From NCBI GenBank assembly GCA_021300535.1, contig JAJTED010000025.1, positions 1 to 40,336 on the forward strand: 40,336 nt of DNA, written 5' to 3'. The notes under the pieces are model-generated. The model saw only the letters and a list, made by a program, of their open reading frames with translations, ran no database searches and had not been told where the DNA came from. This document shows positions 15,000 to 40,067 of this stretch, piece by piece; within the stretch, counting starts at the first letter, position 1; every line of letters begins with the position of its first letter. A program made the translations under genes and the position numbers. The DNA comes from Planctomycetaceae bacterium. GTDB taxonomy: Bacteria > Planctomycetota > Planctomycetia > Pirellulales > UBA1268.

Positions 15000-15353
15000 C
15001 CCGAATCGTCAGATGAGGGAATCCGCGTCGCTCCACGGGAGGCCATCCGCATTCCGCTCGGCTCGCGGCTTTTGCTGGTGCGCGTTCTCCAGTCGTGCGT
15101 TCGGCTTGACATGCGCGAACGGCACAAAAAGCCCCCGGCGGGAGCCGGGGGACACCGGGTTGCATGCCTTCCCGTGTGCCATGCGATGTGGGTTTGAACC
15201 GGGAAATCACGTTGCGTGATGCGGCATGGATGGCGGGATGGTTTTCACACCCGGAGTCCCCGGGTTGCCACCCGGGGCTTCTTGGGCCGGTGACGGGACC
15301 GATCGCCTGTGTACGGGTGGTCAACACACGATTCCCTCATCTGACGATTCGGG
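15000..15353. repeat. 354-bp intergenic segment bracketed by a 24-bp perfect inverted repeat and containing a REP-like hairpin pair
   Basis: cccgaatcgtcagatgagggaatc (15000..15023) versus gattccctcatctgacgattcggg (15330..15353). Confidence 0.85.
15126..15285 (+). repeat. Complete repeat unit: inverted hairpin (15126..15160), core, direct hairpin (15249..15285)
   Basis: aaaaagcccccggcgggagccgggggacaccgggt ... acccggagtccccgggttgccacccggggcttcttgg. Confidence 0.9.
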
Positions 15354-18734: not shown

Positions 18735-18800
18735 GCCGGCTTCCGCCGGGGGCTTTTTGTGCGCCAAGAAGCCCCGGGTGGAAACCCGGGGACACCGGGT
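18735..18800 (-). repeat. Paired REP-like hairpins in the ilvB-mfd intergenic region
   Basis: cgccggcttccgccgggggctttttgtg plus ccaagaagccccgggtggaaacccggggacaccgggt. Confidence 0.88.
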
Positions 18801-18820: not shown

Positions 18821-20596
18821 CTACTTCTTGATCAGGTCCTTGACGGTCATGCCGGAGGGAATCATCGGCAGCACGTGCTCCTGATAGGGCACCTGAACGT
18901 CGAGGATCGCCGGCCCCGGGGCGTCGATCATCCGCCGCAGGGCGGGCACGAGATCCTTCTTCTCCACGATCGTCTCCGCCTGCCAGCCGAAGCCCTTGGC
19001 GATGGCCACGAAGTCGGGGTAGCGGTCGCAGGGAGAGATGCCGTCACCCTGCCCGCAGGCCTCGGGATGGTCGATCGGGCCAAGGTAGGTGTGGGCCCGG
19101 TTGCCCTTGAAGAACCGGTCCTCCCACTGCACCACCATGCCGAGGTGCTGGTTGTTGAGCAGCAGCACCTTGACCGGGATGTTTTCCGTCTTGCAGGTGG
19201 CGAACTCCTGGACGTTCATGAGGATGCTGCCGTCGCCGTCGATGTCGACGACCAGCGCCTCGGGCCTGGCCACCTTCGCCCCCATCGCCGCCGGCAGGCC
19301 GAAGCCCATCGTCCCCAGGCCGCTGGAGGAGAGCCAGGTGCGGGGCCGACGGAAGGTGTAGAACTGGGCGGCCCACATCTGGTGCTGGCCCACGCCCACG
19401 GTGACCACCGTGTCGCGGTCGGCCGTGAGCTTGGAGAGCTCGTGGATCGCCTCCTGGGCGAGGATGCCCGGGTAGCTCGTGTCGTAGGTGAACGGGTCTT
19501 CCTTCTTCCACTCGGCGATCCGCTTGTGCCAGGGGGCGAGGTCGGCGGTCGGCGGCTCGACGATGGCGTTGAGCTGGCCGAGGGCGGCCTTCACGTCGGC
19601 CACGATCGGCACGTGCACGAGCTTGTTCTTGTTGATCTCGGAGGGATCGATGTCGATGTGCACGATGAAGCCGTGCTGGGCGAAGGCCTCCACTTTGCCA
19701 GTCACGCGGTCGTCGAACCGCACGCCCACGGCGAGCAGCAGGTCGGCCTCGTCCACGGCGTAGTTGGCGTACACGCTGCCGTGCATGCCCAGCATGTCGA
19801 GCGACAGGGGATCGTCGCCGGGGAAAGCCCCCAGGCCCATGAGCGTCATCGTCACGGGGATGCCCGTCTTGCGGGCGAGCGTCCGCAACTCCTCCGCTGC
19901 GTCGGCCGCGATCACGCCGCCGCCCGCGTAGAGCACCGGCCGCTTGGCCCGCTTGATGGCCGCGGCCACCTGGGCGATCTGCTCCGGGTGGGCTGCCTTG
20001 CGCGGCTCGGGCCGGTAGCCGGGCAGGTTCATCGGGGCGTCGTAATCGGGCACGATCTGCGCCAGCTGGATGTTCTTCGGCAGATCGACGAGCACCGGGC
20101 CGGGTCTGCCGGTGGTGGCGATATGGAAGGCCTCACGCATCACGCGGGCGATGTCGTTGGCGTCGGTCACCAGGTAGTGGTGCTTGGTGATGCCGCGGCA
20201 CACCTCGACCATCGGCGTCTCCTGGAAGGCGTCGGTGCCGATCACGCTCGTGCCCACCTGGCCGCTGAGCACGACCAGCGGGATGCTGTCGAGCTTGGCG
20301 TCGGCGATCGCCGTCACGAGATTCAGGGCACCGGGACCGCTGGTGCCCATGCACACGCCGGGCCGGCCGGTCGTGCGGGCGTAGCCCTGGGCGGCGAAGG
20401 CCCCGCCCTGCTCGTGCCGCGGCAGGATCGTGCGGATCTTGTCCTTGGCCCGGGTGAGGGCCTGATGGAGCGGCATGCTCGCCCCGCCCGGATAGGCGAA
20501 GATCACGTCCACCCCGTGACGGATCAGCGACTCGACGACCACGTCGGCCCCGGAGGCGAATGCTTCGGTGGCTTTCGGGCGCGAGACGGTGGCCAT
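18821..20596 (-). CDS. ilvB: Acetolactate synthase large subunit
   Basis: [58 protein letters not shown], ThDP region [43 protein letters not shown]. Confidence 0.95.
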
Positions 20597-20746: not shown

Positions 20747-21163
20747 GGCGCATTCTCCAAAGATTACTCTCGGCTTAATATGCGTGAACGGCCCAAAAAC
20801 ACCGGGTCGCGGACCTTCCCGGGTGCCATGCGCGGTGGGTTTGGAGCGGGGAATCGCGTGCCGTTGTGCGGCATGGGCGGCGGGGTGGTTTTCAAGCCCG
20901 GAGTCCCCGGGTTTCCACCCGGGGCTTCTTGGCGCACAAAAAGCCCCCGGCGGGAGCCGGGGGACACCGGGTCAACCGCCGTCCCGTTCTCCATGCGCTA
21001 CGGGTTCGCACCGGGGAATCACGTGCCGTCGTGCGGCATGGACGGCGGGGTGGTTTTCACACTCGGAGTCCCCGGGTTTCCACCCGGGGCTTCTTGGCGC
21101 ACAAAAAGCCCCCGGCGGGAGCCGGGGGACACCGGGTAGCGGACCTTCCCGGGTGCCATGCGG
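20747..21163 (+). repeat. Array of three repeat units (hairpins at 20897..20932, 20938..20971, 21061..21098, 21102..21137)
   Basis: Alternating aaaaagcccccggcgggagccgggggacaccgggt and cccggagtccccgggtttccacccggggcttcttggcgcac with conserved cores between. Confidence 0.92.
21102..21137 (-). terminator. Hairpin with U-tract downstream of the 21164..22339 gene, possible intrinsic terminator
   Basis: Minus strand reads cccccggctcccgccgggggctttttgtg just past the stop codon; it is also a repeat-family member, so terminator function is inferred. Confidence 0.5.
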
Positions 21164-25454: not shown

Positions 25455-27357
25455 CTACTGCGCTGCCGGCTCCGGGGGCGGGGGCGGCTTGGGGATGCCA
25501 GGCGTGGTCGGCTGCCAGGCGAACTGGAGCGTGAAGTCGTACCGCTTGAGTTCGATGGTCTCGGCATCGGCCGGTGCGGCCGGGCCGCCGGTGGCCGTGG
25601 CCGTCGGCTTCGCCCTTTGGATTTGCACCTTTTGGACCTTCGGCGACTCCATGATGATCGGGTAGCCAATGCCGAGTTCGGTGACGGGCACCCGCCTGCC
25701 CCCCCAGGGACCGGCCGAGACGAGCACTTCGTCCCCGTTGCCGAGCAACGCCTGCACGAGGGACGACCGCAGGAACTGCTCGCCCTCCTCCGGCTTGTGT
25801 CGATCTTCGTTGTGGAAGTGATGGCCCGTGATCTGCACCACCCAGCCGGGGCCTTTGGGGCCGACCTGCGCGGGCGCGGCTTCGGCCGGCGGCGGCTCGG
25901 CCCCCTCCGCCGGAGGCGCGGAAGCGGGGGGCGGTGTGGCGGCCGTCCCGCCGACCGAGTGCGTCTCTTCCCACTGCCGCTTCGCGGCGGCGAACCAGGT
26001 CGCGAGGTCGGGAAAATACTGCATGTCGAGGCTCTCGATGTGCAGTTCGTTGCGATCGGCCGGATTCGGTGCCGGCTTCCCGGGCGGGTCGCGGGGCAGG
26101 AGCGACTCCACCGCCCGCAGCATGTCGAGCGTTTGGAACCGCCGGTTTTGCACGTCGACGAGATACCGCTGCTGGGCCGCGGCCTCGGTCCGCTTGGCCC
26201 GCACCTCTTCGAGCGCGGCCGACGCCGCCTGCGAGGCCGACTTGACCGCATCGGCCTTGGCGAATGCGGCGGCGTAGAGCCGTGGCGCGTAGGTGGACCA
26301 GGCGAAGAATATGCCGGCGAAGTTGAGTGCGGCCGCGGCGAACAGGCCGACCAGCGCCGCCAGTGCCCAGGGCTTCTTCGCCTCGATGAGCCGGTCGACG
26401 ACGATCTCCTTGGGCAGAAGGTTCGTCTGCAGGAACGACCCGGCCGCGGCCTGGAGGGCGAGGCCGTAGGCGGTGCCGAAGGCGAGGCGATTTTCGCGGA
26501 AGGCGGGAGCCCCAAGCACGGTCGGCCCATCCATGCGGTCGAACTTCTCCAGCCGCTGCACGTCGAGCTGCAGCTGCTTGGCGACGAAGTCGGAGAGCCC
26601 ACGGAGCTTGGTCGCGTTGCCGAGCAGCAGCACCTTGCCGACCGTCGCCGTGCGGTCGGCGCCGGTGAAGTAGTTGAGCGACCGCTGCAGCTCCGAGGCG
26701 AACTCGCTGAACACCGGCGGTCATCACGACGTCGGTCGAGTCGACGCCCATGCACACGAGCACGATCGCGGCCGGCGGCTTGTCGGGGTCGATCGTCTTC
26801 GGGTCGGGCAGCTGGTCGAACATCACCATGTTCGCCAGCGCGATCGGGGAGAGCTGGAGGACGTCGACCTCGATGCCCGCCTCGAGGAGCGGCGTGAGCG
26901 TCTTGTAGACCTGTTCGCGCTTCATCGCGAACAGCGCGACCTCGGCGTCGATGACGAAGCCGCTCTCCTCCATGCCGCCGGCCAGCCGCTGCCAGTCCCA
27001 GGCCACCTGCTCGAGCGGAAACGGGATCTGCTGCCGGGCTTCGTACTTGACGATGTCGGGGATCTTCTTGGCCTCGATCGGCGGCAGTTTGATGAACTTC
27101 GAGAGCCCGGCCTGCCCCGGCACCGCCACGGCCACCCGCTCCCCCGTGAGGTCGTTGCGGCTCATCAACTCCGCCAGGGCGGCCCGCACCAGCTCCACCG
27201 GATCGGCCTCCGGCTGGGTGAGGATCATCGGGTATTCGATGTAGTCGTAGCCCTCGGCGACGAGTTTTCGGGGATCGGTCGGCGACATGCGGCAGCGGAT
27301 CGCCTTGAGGGCGCACTTGCCGATGTCGATTCCCCACACGTACGGACTGCGGGCCAT
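25455..27357 (-). pseudogene. pilM: PilM-like type IV pilus assembly ATPase with long C-terminal extension, interrupted by an internal deletion/frameshift near 26715-26724
   Basis: N-terminal half in one frame (MARSPYVWGIDIGKCALKAIRCR...LVCMGVDSTDVVMTAG), C-terminal half in another (VFSEFASELQRSLNYFTGADRTATVGKVLLLGNATKLRGLSDFVAKQLQLDVQ...); the expected middle segment is absent. Confidence 0.8.
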
Positions 27358-34394: not shown

Positions 34395-34699
34395 GCGGCG
34401 GTCTCTGACCGCCGTGTCCCCCGGCTTCCGCCGGGGGCTTTTCGTGGCCGTGGCCCAAGAAGCCCCGGGTGGAAACCCGGGGACTCCGGGTATGAATGCC
34501 ATCCCGCCATCCATGCCGCCGGACTGCACGCAATGCTCTGGTTCGCACCCGTAGCGCATGGCACGCTGGCAGGCATGATTCTTGGAGCGGCGGTCTCTGA
34601 CCGCCGTGTCCCCCGGCTTCCGCCGGGGGCTTTTCGTGGCCGTGGCCCAAGAAGCCCCGGGTGGAAACCCGGGGACTCCGGGTATGAATGCCATCCCGC
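34395..34699 (-). repeat. Two identical 113-bp direct repeats (34395..34507, 34587..34699), each carrying paired REP-like hairpins
   Basis: gcggcggtctctgaccgccgtgtcccccggcttccgccgggggcttttcgtggccgtggcccaagaagccccgggtggaaacccggggactccgggtatgaatgccatcccgc appears identically twice, offset 192 nt. Confidence 0.95.
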
Positions 34700-34961: not shown

Positions 34962-36416
34962 ATGACCCCCGTCACGGCGGAACACCTCGCGCACCTGCTC
35001 GGCGAATTGGATCTCGTCGGCCATTCACAGCTCGACGACGCCCTGCGCGAGTTCGGCGGTCACGACCAGCCGGCCTACGACTTCGGCACGACCCTGGTCC
35101 GCCGCGAGTTGCTCACGGGCTACCAGCTCGAGCGGCTGCTGCGCGGCGAGCGGGCCGGCTTCTTCTACGGCAGCGCCAAGGTGCTGTATCAGATTGGTGC
35201 CGGCTCCTTCGCCCGCGTCTTCCGGGCCGTGCATCGCGACGACGGCACGATCTTGGCGGTCAAGGTGCTCCGCAGCCGCTATGCCAACGACGCCGAGAAG
35301 CAGTCCGCCTTCCGCCACGAGGGCGAGATGGGGCGGCTGCTGCGGCATCCGAACATCGTGGCCATCGAGGATGTCGGCCAGGAACATGGGGTGAGCTACA
35401 TCAACATGGAGTTCGTGGAGGGGCAGACGCTGCGCGAGTTGGTGCGGATCCGCGGCGCCGTCGACCTGCCCCGGGGGCTCGAACTGATCCAGCAGATGCT
35501 CGCCGGCCTGGAATACGCCCACCGCCGCGGTGTCACGCATCGTGACATGAAGGCCTCGAACGTGATCGTGTCGGCGGCGGGCCAGGCCAAACTCGTCGAC
35601 TTCGGCCTCGCCGGCGTGGACGTCACGGCCGACAAGGCGCTCGGCCGCATGGACAAGCCGCGCACGGTGGACTACGCCGCCCTCGAGAAGCTCACGGGGA
35701 TGCGCGACGACGGCGCGCGCAGCGACATCTACTTCCTCGGCACCGTGGCTTACCTCGCCTTGGCCGGGGCTTCCGCCCTCCCCGAGTCGCGGGATCGCAA
35801 CGTGCGGTCCGATCCGCGGCGATTCACGGCCGTCGCGCCGCTCGCCAGCCGTGCCCCGCGCCTGCCGCGGGACGTCGTCGACTTCGTGGGGCGGATGATG
35901 CATCTCGATCCGCTCGAGCGCTGGCAGACGGCCGCCGACGCCCGGCGGGCTCTGGAGCAGATCATCGCCCGTCGCGGGGCCGAACCGGCGTCGGTCGCGG
36001 CCGGTGCGGACACGGCGACCGCGGCGACCGTCGCTATCACCAAGGGGAGCGTGATGGTGGTGGAGGCGACGGAGAAGGCCCAGCAGTCGCTGCGGCAGTT
36101 CTTCACGAAACTCGGCTACCGGGTGCTGATCACCGAGAGCCCGCAGCGGGCGCTCTCACGGTTCGCCACCACGCCCCCGCCGGCCGACATGCTCGTGTTG
36201 AGCGCCCAGAAACTCGGAGGGCAGGCGGTCGAGGCGTTCAACGCCCTGTCGTCCGATCCTTTTTATGCGGCGGTGCCCGCGGTGCTGATCGCCGGCCCGA
36301 AACAGGCCGACCTCGCGGAGCAGGTGCGGGTGGACGACCGCCGTAAGTTCGTGCAATTGCCCATGCCGTCAGCCGACTTTTCCCGGCTGCTCGCGGGGCT
36401 GCTGCGGCCCGCCTGA
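34962..36416 (+). CDS. Serine/threonine protein kinase with C-terminal degenerate receiver-like domain
   Basis: IGAGSFARVFRAV, LAVKVL, HRDMKASNVIV, LVDFGLAG; tail GSVMVVEATEKAQQSLRQFFTKLGYRVLITESPQRALSRFATTPPPADMLVLSAQ... looks like a CheY fold. Confidence 0.87.
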   Translation: MTPVTAEHLAHLLGELDLVGHSQLDDALREFGGHDQPAYDFGTTLVRRELLTGYQLERLLRGERAGFFYGSAKVLYQIGAGSFARVFRAVHRDDGTILAVKVLRSRYANDAEKQSAFRHEGEMGRLLRHPNIVAIEDVGQEHGVSYINMEFVEGQTLRELVRIRGAVDLPRGLELIQQMLAGLEYAHRRGVTHRDMKASNVIVSAAGQAKLVDFGLAGVDVTADKALGRMDKPRTVDYAALEKLTGMRDDGARSDIYFLGTVAYLALAGASALPESRDRNVRSDPRRFTAVAPLASRAPRLPRDVVDFVGRMMHLDPLERWQTAADARRALEQIIARRGAEPASVAAGADTATAATVAITKGSVMVVEATEKAQQSLRQFFTKLGYRVLITESPQRALSRFATTPPPADMLVLSAQKLGGQAVEAFNALSSDPFYAAVPAVLIAGPKQADLAEQVRVDDRRKFVQLPMPSADFSRLLAGLLRPA

Positions 36417-36468: not shown

Positions 36469-36676
36469 CCAAGAAGCCCCGGGTGGCAACCCGGGGACAC
36501 CGGGCGTGAAAACCTCCCCGTCGTCCATGCCGTAGGGCTTTGCGGCGATTCGTTGGTTCGGGCCCGCATGGCATGGTGCGCGAGCTCGTGTTCGACCCGG
36601 AGTCCCCGGCTTCCGCCGGGGGCTTTTTGGGAACAGCGCGACAAGAAGCCCCGGGTGGCAACCCGGGGACACCGGG
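36469..36676 (-). repeat. REP-like hairpin array between the kinase and ATP-grasp genes
   Basis: Hairpins at 36469..36504, 36595..36629 and 36642..36676 in the same inverted arrangement. Confidence 0.9.
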
Positions 36677-36840
36677 CGTGAAAACCTCCCTGCCATCCAT
36701 GCCGCCGATCGTCGCGGCCCGCGAAAAGCGGGCGGCCATTTCGCGGGCGGGTCTGCGCGTGTATGGTGCGTCGATCTTCCGCGGCTCCCTTGCAGGCGGC
36801 CGGGCCGTCGCGGTGTTCCTTCCTCTCTCGTTCCGGCCGC

Positions 36841-38283
36841 ATGGACCTGCAGGCGTACCAGACCGACGGTTTCCACGACGAGCTCTTCGACGCCGGGCTC
36901 CGGCCACGGGCCGGCGCCGAGCAGCTCGTGCGGCGGCTGGCCGCGTTCTCCAGCGGTGAGCTCTCCGCGCGGCAACGGGCGGCCGACAAGTCGCTGCTCA
37001 CGATGGGGATCACGTTCAACGTCTACGGCCACGAGGCCGGGACGGAGAAGATCTGGCCGTTCGACATCGTGCCGCGGGTCATCGACGCGGCCGAGTGGGC
37101 GACCATCGAGCGCGGGCTGAAGCAGCGGATTCACGCCCTCAACCTGTTCATCGACGACGTCTACAACCGCCGTCGGATCGTCGCCGACGGCGTGGTGCCC
37201 GATTGGCTCGTCGATTCGGGCAAGTGCTTCCGCGGCCCGTGCGCCGGCCTCCAGCCGCCCCGGGGCGTGTGGTGCCACATCACCGGCACCGACCTCGTCC
37301 GCGGCGGCGACGGGGTGATGTACGTGCTCGAGGACAACCTGCGGACGCCCTCCGGTGTGTCCTACGTGCTCGAGAATCGCGAGGTCATGAAGCGGATCTT
37401 TCCGCAGCTCTTCGAGGGGCAGCGGATCAGCCCCGTCGAGGACTATCCGGAGAAGCTGCGGGCGATGCTCGAGTACGTCGCGCCCCCGCAGGCCCGCGAC
37501 CCGAACGTCGTCGTGCTCACGCCTGGCATCTACAACTCGGCCTACTTCGAGCACAGTTTCCTGGCCCGGCAGATGGGCGTGGAACTGGTGCAGGGCTCGG
37601 ATCTCGTGGTCCAGGGCGATGTCGTCTTCATGCGGACCACGCGGGGCCTGGAGCGGGTGGACGTCATCTACCGACGGATCGACGACGACTTCCTCGATCC
37701 GCGGGCGTTCCGCGGCGACTCGCTCGTCGGCGTGCCCGGCCTGATGAACGCCTACCGGGCCGGCAACGTGGCTCTGGTCAATGCACCCGGCACCGGGATC
37801 GCCGACGACAAGGCGGTGTACGCCTACGTGCCGCAGATCATCCGCTACTACCTCGGCGAGGACGCCATCATCCCCAACGTCCCCACCTACGTCTGCGGGG
37901 AGGAGAAGCAGTGCAGCCATGTCCTCTCCCGGCTCGGGGAGTTCGTGGTCAAGCCGGCCAACGAGTCGGGCGGCTACGGCATCGTGCTCGGCCCCCGGGC
38001 CACGCGGGAGCAGCTCGACGAATGCCGCTCCCGGATCCTGGCCAACCCGCGGAACTTCATCGCCCAGCCGATGCTCGCGCTGTCGCGGGTGCCCACGGTG
38101 GTGGGCGACTCGCTGGAGGGGCGGCATGTGGACCTGCGGCCGTTCATCCTCTACGGCGAGGAGATCTTCGTGCTTCCCGGCGGGCTGACCCGCGTGGCGT
38201 TGGTGAAGGGCTCGCTGGTGGTCAACTCGTCGCAGGGCGGCGGCAGCAAGGACACCTGGGTCGTCCATCCAGGGAGGGCGTGA
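36841..38283 (+). CDS. Circularly permuted ATP-grasp family protein
   Basis: [30 protein letters not shown]...; [94 protein letters not shown]. Confidence 0.93.
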
Positions 38284-39268: not shown

Positions 39269-39316
39269 GGTTGGCGACTGGAGGGCTCGCCCCGGGCGTG
39301 GTGCGGGGACCGTGGC

Positions 39317-39982
39317 GTGCCGTCGTGCGGCATGGATGGCGGGGTGGTATTCGTACCCGGAGTCCCCGGGTTTCCACCCGGGGCTTCTCGGAACGCTGTC
39401 CACAAGAAGCCCCTGGCGGAAGCTGGGGTGGGAAAGTTCACGTGAACCTGCGGCATCGTGCCGCAGTTCGCTTGGCGTGCCTCCGCCCACTCACAGTCAA
39501 CCCGGCCCTCCGGGCCTATCGCTCCCACAAAAAGCCCCCGGCGGAAGCCGGGGGACTCCGGGTGGCATGCCTTCCCGTTCACCATGCGCCGCGGGTTTGC
39601 ACCGGTGAATCACGTGCCGTCGTGCGGCATGGACGGCGGGGTGGTATTCGTACCCGGAGTCCCCGGGTTTCCACCCGGGGCTTCTCGGAACGGTGTCCAC
39701 AAGAAGCCCCTGGCGGAAGCTGGTGGGAAAGTTCACGTGAACCTGCGGCATCGTGCCGCAGTTCGCTTGGCGTGCCTCCGCCCACTCACAGTCAACCCGG
39801 CCCTCCGGGCCTGGCGCTCCCACAAAAAGCCCCCGGCGGAAGCCGGGGGACTCCGGGTGGCATGCCTTCCCGTTCACTATGCGCCGCGGGTTTGCACCGG
39901 TGAATCACGTGCCGTCGTGCGGCATGGATGGCGGGGTGGTATTCGTACCCGGAGTCCCCGGGTTTCCACCCGGGGCTTCTCG
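39317..39982 (+). repeat. Composite tandem array: two full ~296-nt units and part of a third, each with REP-like hairpins, core and hairpin-rich module
   Basis: gtgccgtcgtgcggcatgga[t/c]ggcggggtggtattcgtacccggagtccccggg begins at 39317, 39614 and 39909 (spacings 297 and 295). Confidence 0.95.
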
Positions 39983-40067
39983 GAACGGTGGTGGGGCCGC
40001 TTCCCCAGCGCACCACCAACAGGCGTGAGCCAAGGGACTGCGGATGGCTGCGGGTGCAGTGGCGCGT

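Follow-up and report, generated by a model that had tools for sequence, protein, structure and literature searches.

What is the repeat that lies in tandem downstream of the alpha-E gene (PF04168; 38285 to 39268, + strand) in this planctomycete genome, and how did it come to be there? Within the window, that is, the whole 40,336-nt stretch of DNA analyzed, Tandem Repeats Finder resolved an array at 39316 to 39990 (period 295, 2.3 copies, 97% matches). An ungapped direct-repeat search gave start spacings of 297 and 295, and none of 50 dinucleotide shuffles contained a tandem repeat; together these confirmed the original prediction of a tandem composite repeat with those spacings. Unit 1 (39316 to 39612, + strand, 297 nt, recovered by both searches) and unit 2 (39613 to 39907, + strand, 295 nt) were ~98% identical, the few differences anticipated between them amounting to 5 substitutions and one 2-nt indel. 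The third unit (39908 to 39990, + strand) was partial, comprising only the left part of the core and REP-a, with its 83 nt 99% identical to unit 1. The predicted order of core with hairpin, degenerate hairpin, hairpin-rich module, second hairpin, and next core also held. In unit 1, the left part of the core (cL, 39316 to 39354) and the REP-a hairpin (39355 to 39388, + strand; further copies at 39652 to 39685 and 39947 to 39980) are followed by a degenerate REP in the opposite orientation (d, 39402 to 39427), a 98-nt module folding as three hairpins of conserved structure (S, 39428 to 39525, + strand; copy 2 at 39723 to 39820), the REP-b hairpin, also in the opposite orientation (39526 to 39563, − strand; copy 2 at 39821 to 39858), and a 49-nt linker (l, 39564 to 39612) leading to the next core. 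REP-a reads ACCCGGAGTCCCCGGGTTTCCACCCGGGGCTT and REP-b, on the other strand, ACCCGGAGTCCCCCGGCTTCCGCCGGGGGCTTTTTG; both have a GGAA loop on the complementary strand, and by their sequences they are two forms of a single element.

The idea of a repeat private to this site did not survive, as the unit proved to be one instance of a genome-wide REP/BIME-like family. The array hairpins recurred at at least six other places in the window: a pair of S modules on either side of a REP where the contig begins (11 to 221, − strand), a REP-b/core/REP-a cluster (15123 to 15285, + strand), a close REP-a/REP-b pair (18736 to 18800, − strand), a second tandem REP array of period 165 without S (20799 to 21162, + strand), a cluster with two REP-a/REP-b pairs (34416 to 34699, − strand), and a further cluster (36472 to 36705, no strand assigned) between a protein kinase gene (34962 to 36416) and a circularly permuted ATP-grasp gene (36763 to 38283). 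The two clusters at 36472 to 36705 and 39316 to 39990 both lay outside the adjoining Pfam-supported genes. The sole ARAGORN tRNA call, at 20898 to 20993 (− strand), had no clear anticodon, lay on REP hairpins, and is probably spurious. Genome-wide counts were taken from pattern and model searches; a hairpin search with stems of at least 9 was too strict for the REPs of this genome. A degenerate REP pattern matched 727 times in this draft genome of 4.0 Mb, 365 times on one strand and 362 on the other, the reversed pattern used as a control matched 0 times in the same genome, and each of 21 congeners had 0 to 18 matches. The hairpins were thereby shown to be one genome-wide, species-specific family of the REP kind, being short palindromes of 20 to 40 nt whose copies exceed 100 per genome.

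Spacers between neighboring REPs at the sampled loci were quantized at 80 to 99 nt head to head, 0 to 29 nt tail to tail, and 90 to 109 nt in the same orientation, the last consisting mostly of S. With its regular spacing, alternating orientation, and mosaics, this is a BIME-like architecture, although the same-orientation pairs (58, next to 47 head-head and 28 tail-tail) depart from strict BIME alternation. The canonical GT[AG]G tag 5′ of the hairpin was absent, REP-a and REP-b carrying GGAG or GGTG.

The genome's sole match to PF01797 (Y1_Tnp), above the cut-off, was a gene at 26108 to 26602 of contig C177 with REPs of the same family on either side. It encodes a 165-amino-acid protein with THVH as its HUH motif, a Y----Q motif, and a conserved tyrosine at Y154, whose structure was predicted with high confidence (pLDDT 91); the nearest solved structures to the predicted fold were IS200/IS605 transposases and the REP-associated transposase 4er8, and a search of solved structures by sequence returned chance matches only. 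The protein scored below the NCBIfam cut-off for REP_Tyr_transpos (NF047646; 18.9 bits versus 80) and also below that for IS200. A Y1 HUH fold with its motifs, encoded by a single-copy gene flanked by cognate REPs, is characteristic of RAYTs (TnpA-REP), and the Y----Q motif, the planctomycete distribution, and the high-copy non-GTAG flanking hairpins are those of class 3 TnpA-Y1. On its motifs, fold, and planctomycete distribution, the gene therefore fits class 3 of Quentin et al. 2018 (PMC6006769).

A class-3-like gene was found once each in 9 of the 22 genomes of the genus (this genome and 8 congeners), every one flanked on either side by its own repeat. Three additional REP patterns from these flanks were abundant in genomes with the gene and nearly missing from the others. 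The first matched 175 times in G008 and 0 times in the others; the second matched 380 times in G010, 321 in G017, 99 in G009, 10 in G020, and 0 to 1 in the rest; the third matched 25 and 31 times in G002 and G018, 13 times in G009, and 9 times in G013, a genome having no detected gene. This association of gene and REP among congeners is partly built in, because the patterns were taken from gene-bearing genomes. Further relatives of the gene came from one scan of genome contigs (294 found, 80 kept), and were Planctomycetota wherever the record title named a phylum, a few being titled only "bacterium." Y....Q was present in 63 of 77 relatives. At 68 of the 74 testable loci, a repeat was common to both flanks, with a score higher than that of any of the 54 distal or 74 cross-locus controls; the repeats flanking the genes of the nearest relatives were mostly direct, not inverted. 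GT[AG]G hairpins were not enriched in the gene flanks (2/80, versus 1/80 distal controls), whereas an AAGCCC..GC..GC..GGG core was (41/80 versus 5/80). A CnGA-type pattern occurred in 29/80 flanks versus 11/80 distal controls and was indistinct in this genome's own REPs. Taken together, the REP family was probably spread by the single-copy transposase-like gene. By analogy with published TnpA-REP biochemistry, the HUH protein would recognize the folded single-stranded REP, cut and rejoin it, and so spread REP units.

The array thus belongs to a class-3-type REP system with local duplication. Our explanation as a whole, which we hold to be likely, is that a BIME-like mosaic of REP-type hairpins was gained downstream of alpha-E in this lineage and then locally duplicated in tandem; weighing against it are the protein's score under the NCBIfam cut-off, the missing GT[AG]G tag, the partly built-in congener association, the REPs of G013 without a detected gene, and the lack of an exact empty site at alpha-E. 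Gain in the lineage was examined at the neighboring cluster at 36472 to 36705. The interval from the kinase stop to codon 27 of the ATP-grasp gene that holds it is 425 nt here; of eight congeners, six had an orthologous interval of 115 to 186 nt with no repeated 15-mers, and the remaining 2 had one of 400 and 468 nt with other repeats. The repeats in this interval in G009 (L208) and G014 (L213) were unrelated and species specific, apparently independent gains at one site. Downstream of alpha-E, the array was absent from all congeners compared: a transglutaminase-like reading frame followed within tens of bases in seven, a kdsB-like gene in three, and unrelated tandem hairpins in two (both gene names were read by us from the sequence and do not come from a database). 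An exact empty site is unobtainable at alpha-E because the next gene differs between congeners. The tandem hairpin after alpha-E in G012 and G020 was a different one, GCCCGTCACTCCGTGACGGGC (L160, L161, and L217); upstream of the ATP-grasp gene in G020, a second Y1 transposase reading frame, class-2-like, lay beside GCCCGTCACTCCGTGACGGGC-type hairpins.

Evidence for local duplication came from the units themselves, ~98% identical to one another and 70 to 91% identical to copies elsewhere in the genome. Among 58 S copies, median identity was 97.2% within loci and 87.1% between them (permutation p ~0.0005), and local tandem duplication is therefore general in this genome. Single composites bracketed by REP-a occurred at three other loci (L012, L014, and L015) and are what unequal recombination or slippage would be expected to act on. 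In the array itself, the 295-nt step would reflect recombination or slippage between the two direct core copies that bracket d-S-b-l. A long S-REP array was also seen in this genome (G000) at L196 (G000:C145:18800-21200), with 8 S in ~124-nt steps from C145:19637 to 20597 and an extra copy at 19335. Thirteen contigs of G000 (C4, C12, C17, C21, C30, C32, C55, C80, C99, C125, C130, C160, and C169) start inside S-REP repeats; the arrays therefore break the assembly, and their copy number is probably underestimated.

The original prediction of recent amplification by unequal recombination or slippage was accordingly upheld as to its being recent and local; its mechanism fits the data, and amplification driven by the RAYT fits them likewise. 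In the latter alternative, the RAYT-like protein itself would make the tandem copies, by the rolling-circle-like copying of a basic module proposed for BIMEs (Nunvar et al. 2010) and not by homologous recombination or slippage. This is a published model, whose authors question whether recombination by itself accounts for the variation in BIME length (PMC2817692); arrays with periods of 124, 165, and 295 nt all bear REPs at their unit boundaries, and direct repeats of one and the same unit enclose the relatives' genes. Long direct repeats that recombine or slip, however, are expected to give the same arrays without a special enzyme, and S formed tandem arrays without class-3 REPs at L181 (G006:C260:312-635) and at G005:C5:77889-78274 (steps of 77 and 98 nt) in two genomes, G005 and G006, in which no class-3 gene was detected. 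We thus regard enzymatic copying as a possible but rather doubtful source of the tandem units.

The S module is the most novel part of the array and the one likeliest to be new; we found no description of it. In 20 S copies taken from six genomes, both sides had changed in 12 of the 24 pairs, and the strong covariation observed was reached by 0 of 500 shuffles. A covariance model of S had matches in 18 of the 22 genomes of the genus, with at least 145 in this genome; across the family it matched 46 of 72 genomes (7 of 12 genera), with at least 59 matches in five genomes. Outside the genus, 49 matches in six genomes were aligned; 133 cells of this alignment had compensatory changes (reached by 0 of 500 shuffles), and it leans toward the structure because it was fitted to the covariance model. 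No Rfam family was matched at the gathering score; sub-threshold matches were a mixture of microRNA, snoRNA, sRNA, and riboswitch models with no shared theme. The S hairpins bear a resemblance to CsrA-type GGA-loop sites, and nothing more. In G059 and G060, of another genus in the family, S and a GT[AG]G-tagged GACAGGC..GCCTGTC hairpin fell within a stretch of at most 1.1 kb at 18 of 30 sampled loci (L223 to L252), and in G060 S also occurred as arrays with a ~122-nt step; the history of S is therefore separate from that of the class-3 REPs. In our explanation, S would be an independent structured repeat turned spacer and carried along. We put at about even the chances that S, with its three hairpins and ~90 nt, represents a family-wide structured repeat not described before, whose spread is independent of any one transposase, either as a nonautonomous mobile element of its own or as an abundant structured RNA.

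The conserved structure of S, with its many compensatory changes, and the strong hairpins directly after the gene favor a rival reading in which the array persists because of a role that it has here (for example, in terminating transcription, in stabilizing the mRNA 3′ end, or as a structured RNA), its spread being secondary. Such a function is improbable: congeners lack this array after alpha-E, S had no Rfam match, and S showed no preference for lying after a gene's 3′ end rather than facing one (17 versus 13 copies here, 22 versus 21 elsewhere). The related idea that S is an element placed right after stop codons was rejected, since some copies do start at a stop codon, yet open reading frames end equally on the other side. 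Finally, that one unit was doubled by the assembler or by the merging of metagenome strains is very improbable: the draft genome has 197 contigs and several end within such repeats, but 5 substitutions and one indel separate units 1 and 2, tandem copies also occur at many independent loci and in other genomes, and assemblies usually collapse repeats, so that true copy numbers may be higher.

Having been read as a REP mosaic with local duplication, the array can be set beside three known systems. TIRtrons are RAYT-like tyrosine transposase genes flanked by TIRs with amplifiable non-GTAG repeats, and the planctomycete Rhodopirellula baltica was singled out as having many of these genes and repeats (Di Nocera 2013, PMC3733652). 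They share with the present case a RAYT-like gene between non-GTAG amplifiable repeats; unlike in TIRtrons, what is amplified here is a short hairpin occurring in mosaics, and the repeats on either side of the genes in the nearest relatives are for the most part direct rather than inverted. The GTAG REPs, REPINs, and BIMEs associated with RAYTs (Nunvar 2010, PMC2817692; Bertels and Rainey 2011, PMC3116915; Di Nocera 2013, PMC3733652) have in common with this system high-copy short palindromes, alternating orientation, quantized spacers, tandem clusters of near-identical units, and a transposase gene between its own REPs. In contrast to them, the GT[AG]G tag is lacking here, the protein diverges widely from the model of the canonical family, and an independent structured repeat separates REPs of the same orientation.

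The third system is class 3 of TnpA-Y1, whose genes are rare, occur mainly in Planctomycetes, encode HUH proteins with Y----Q, and have atypical non-GTAG hairpins on either side, sometimes in hundreds of copies (~600 in Solibacter usitatus) (Quentin et al. 2018, PMC6006769). The planctomycete host, the HUH and Y----Q motifs, the non-GTAG flanking hairpins, and the high copy number are all alike here. Different from that description are the species-specific REP families within one genus, the BIME-like mosaics, the S module, and the CnGA foot reported for class 3 hairpins, which is seen here only in part. A rarely studied HUH class is hereby tied to matching species-specific REP families inside one genus, so that REP-RAYT coevolution becomes testable outside Proteobacteria, and REP mosaics emerge as able to harbor another repeat, one of conserved structure and separate history.
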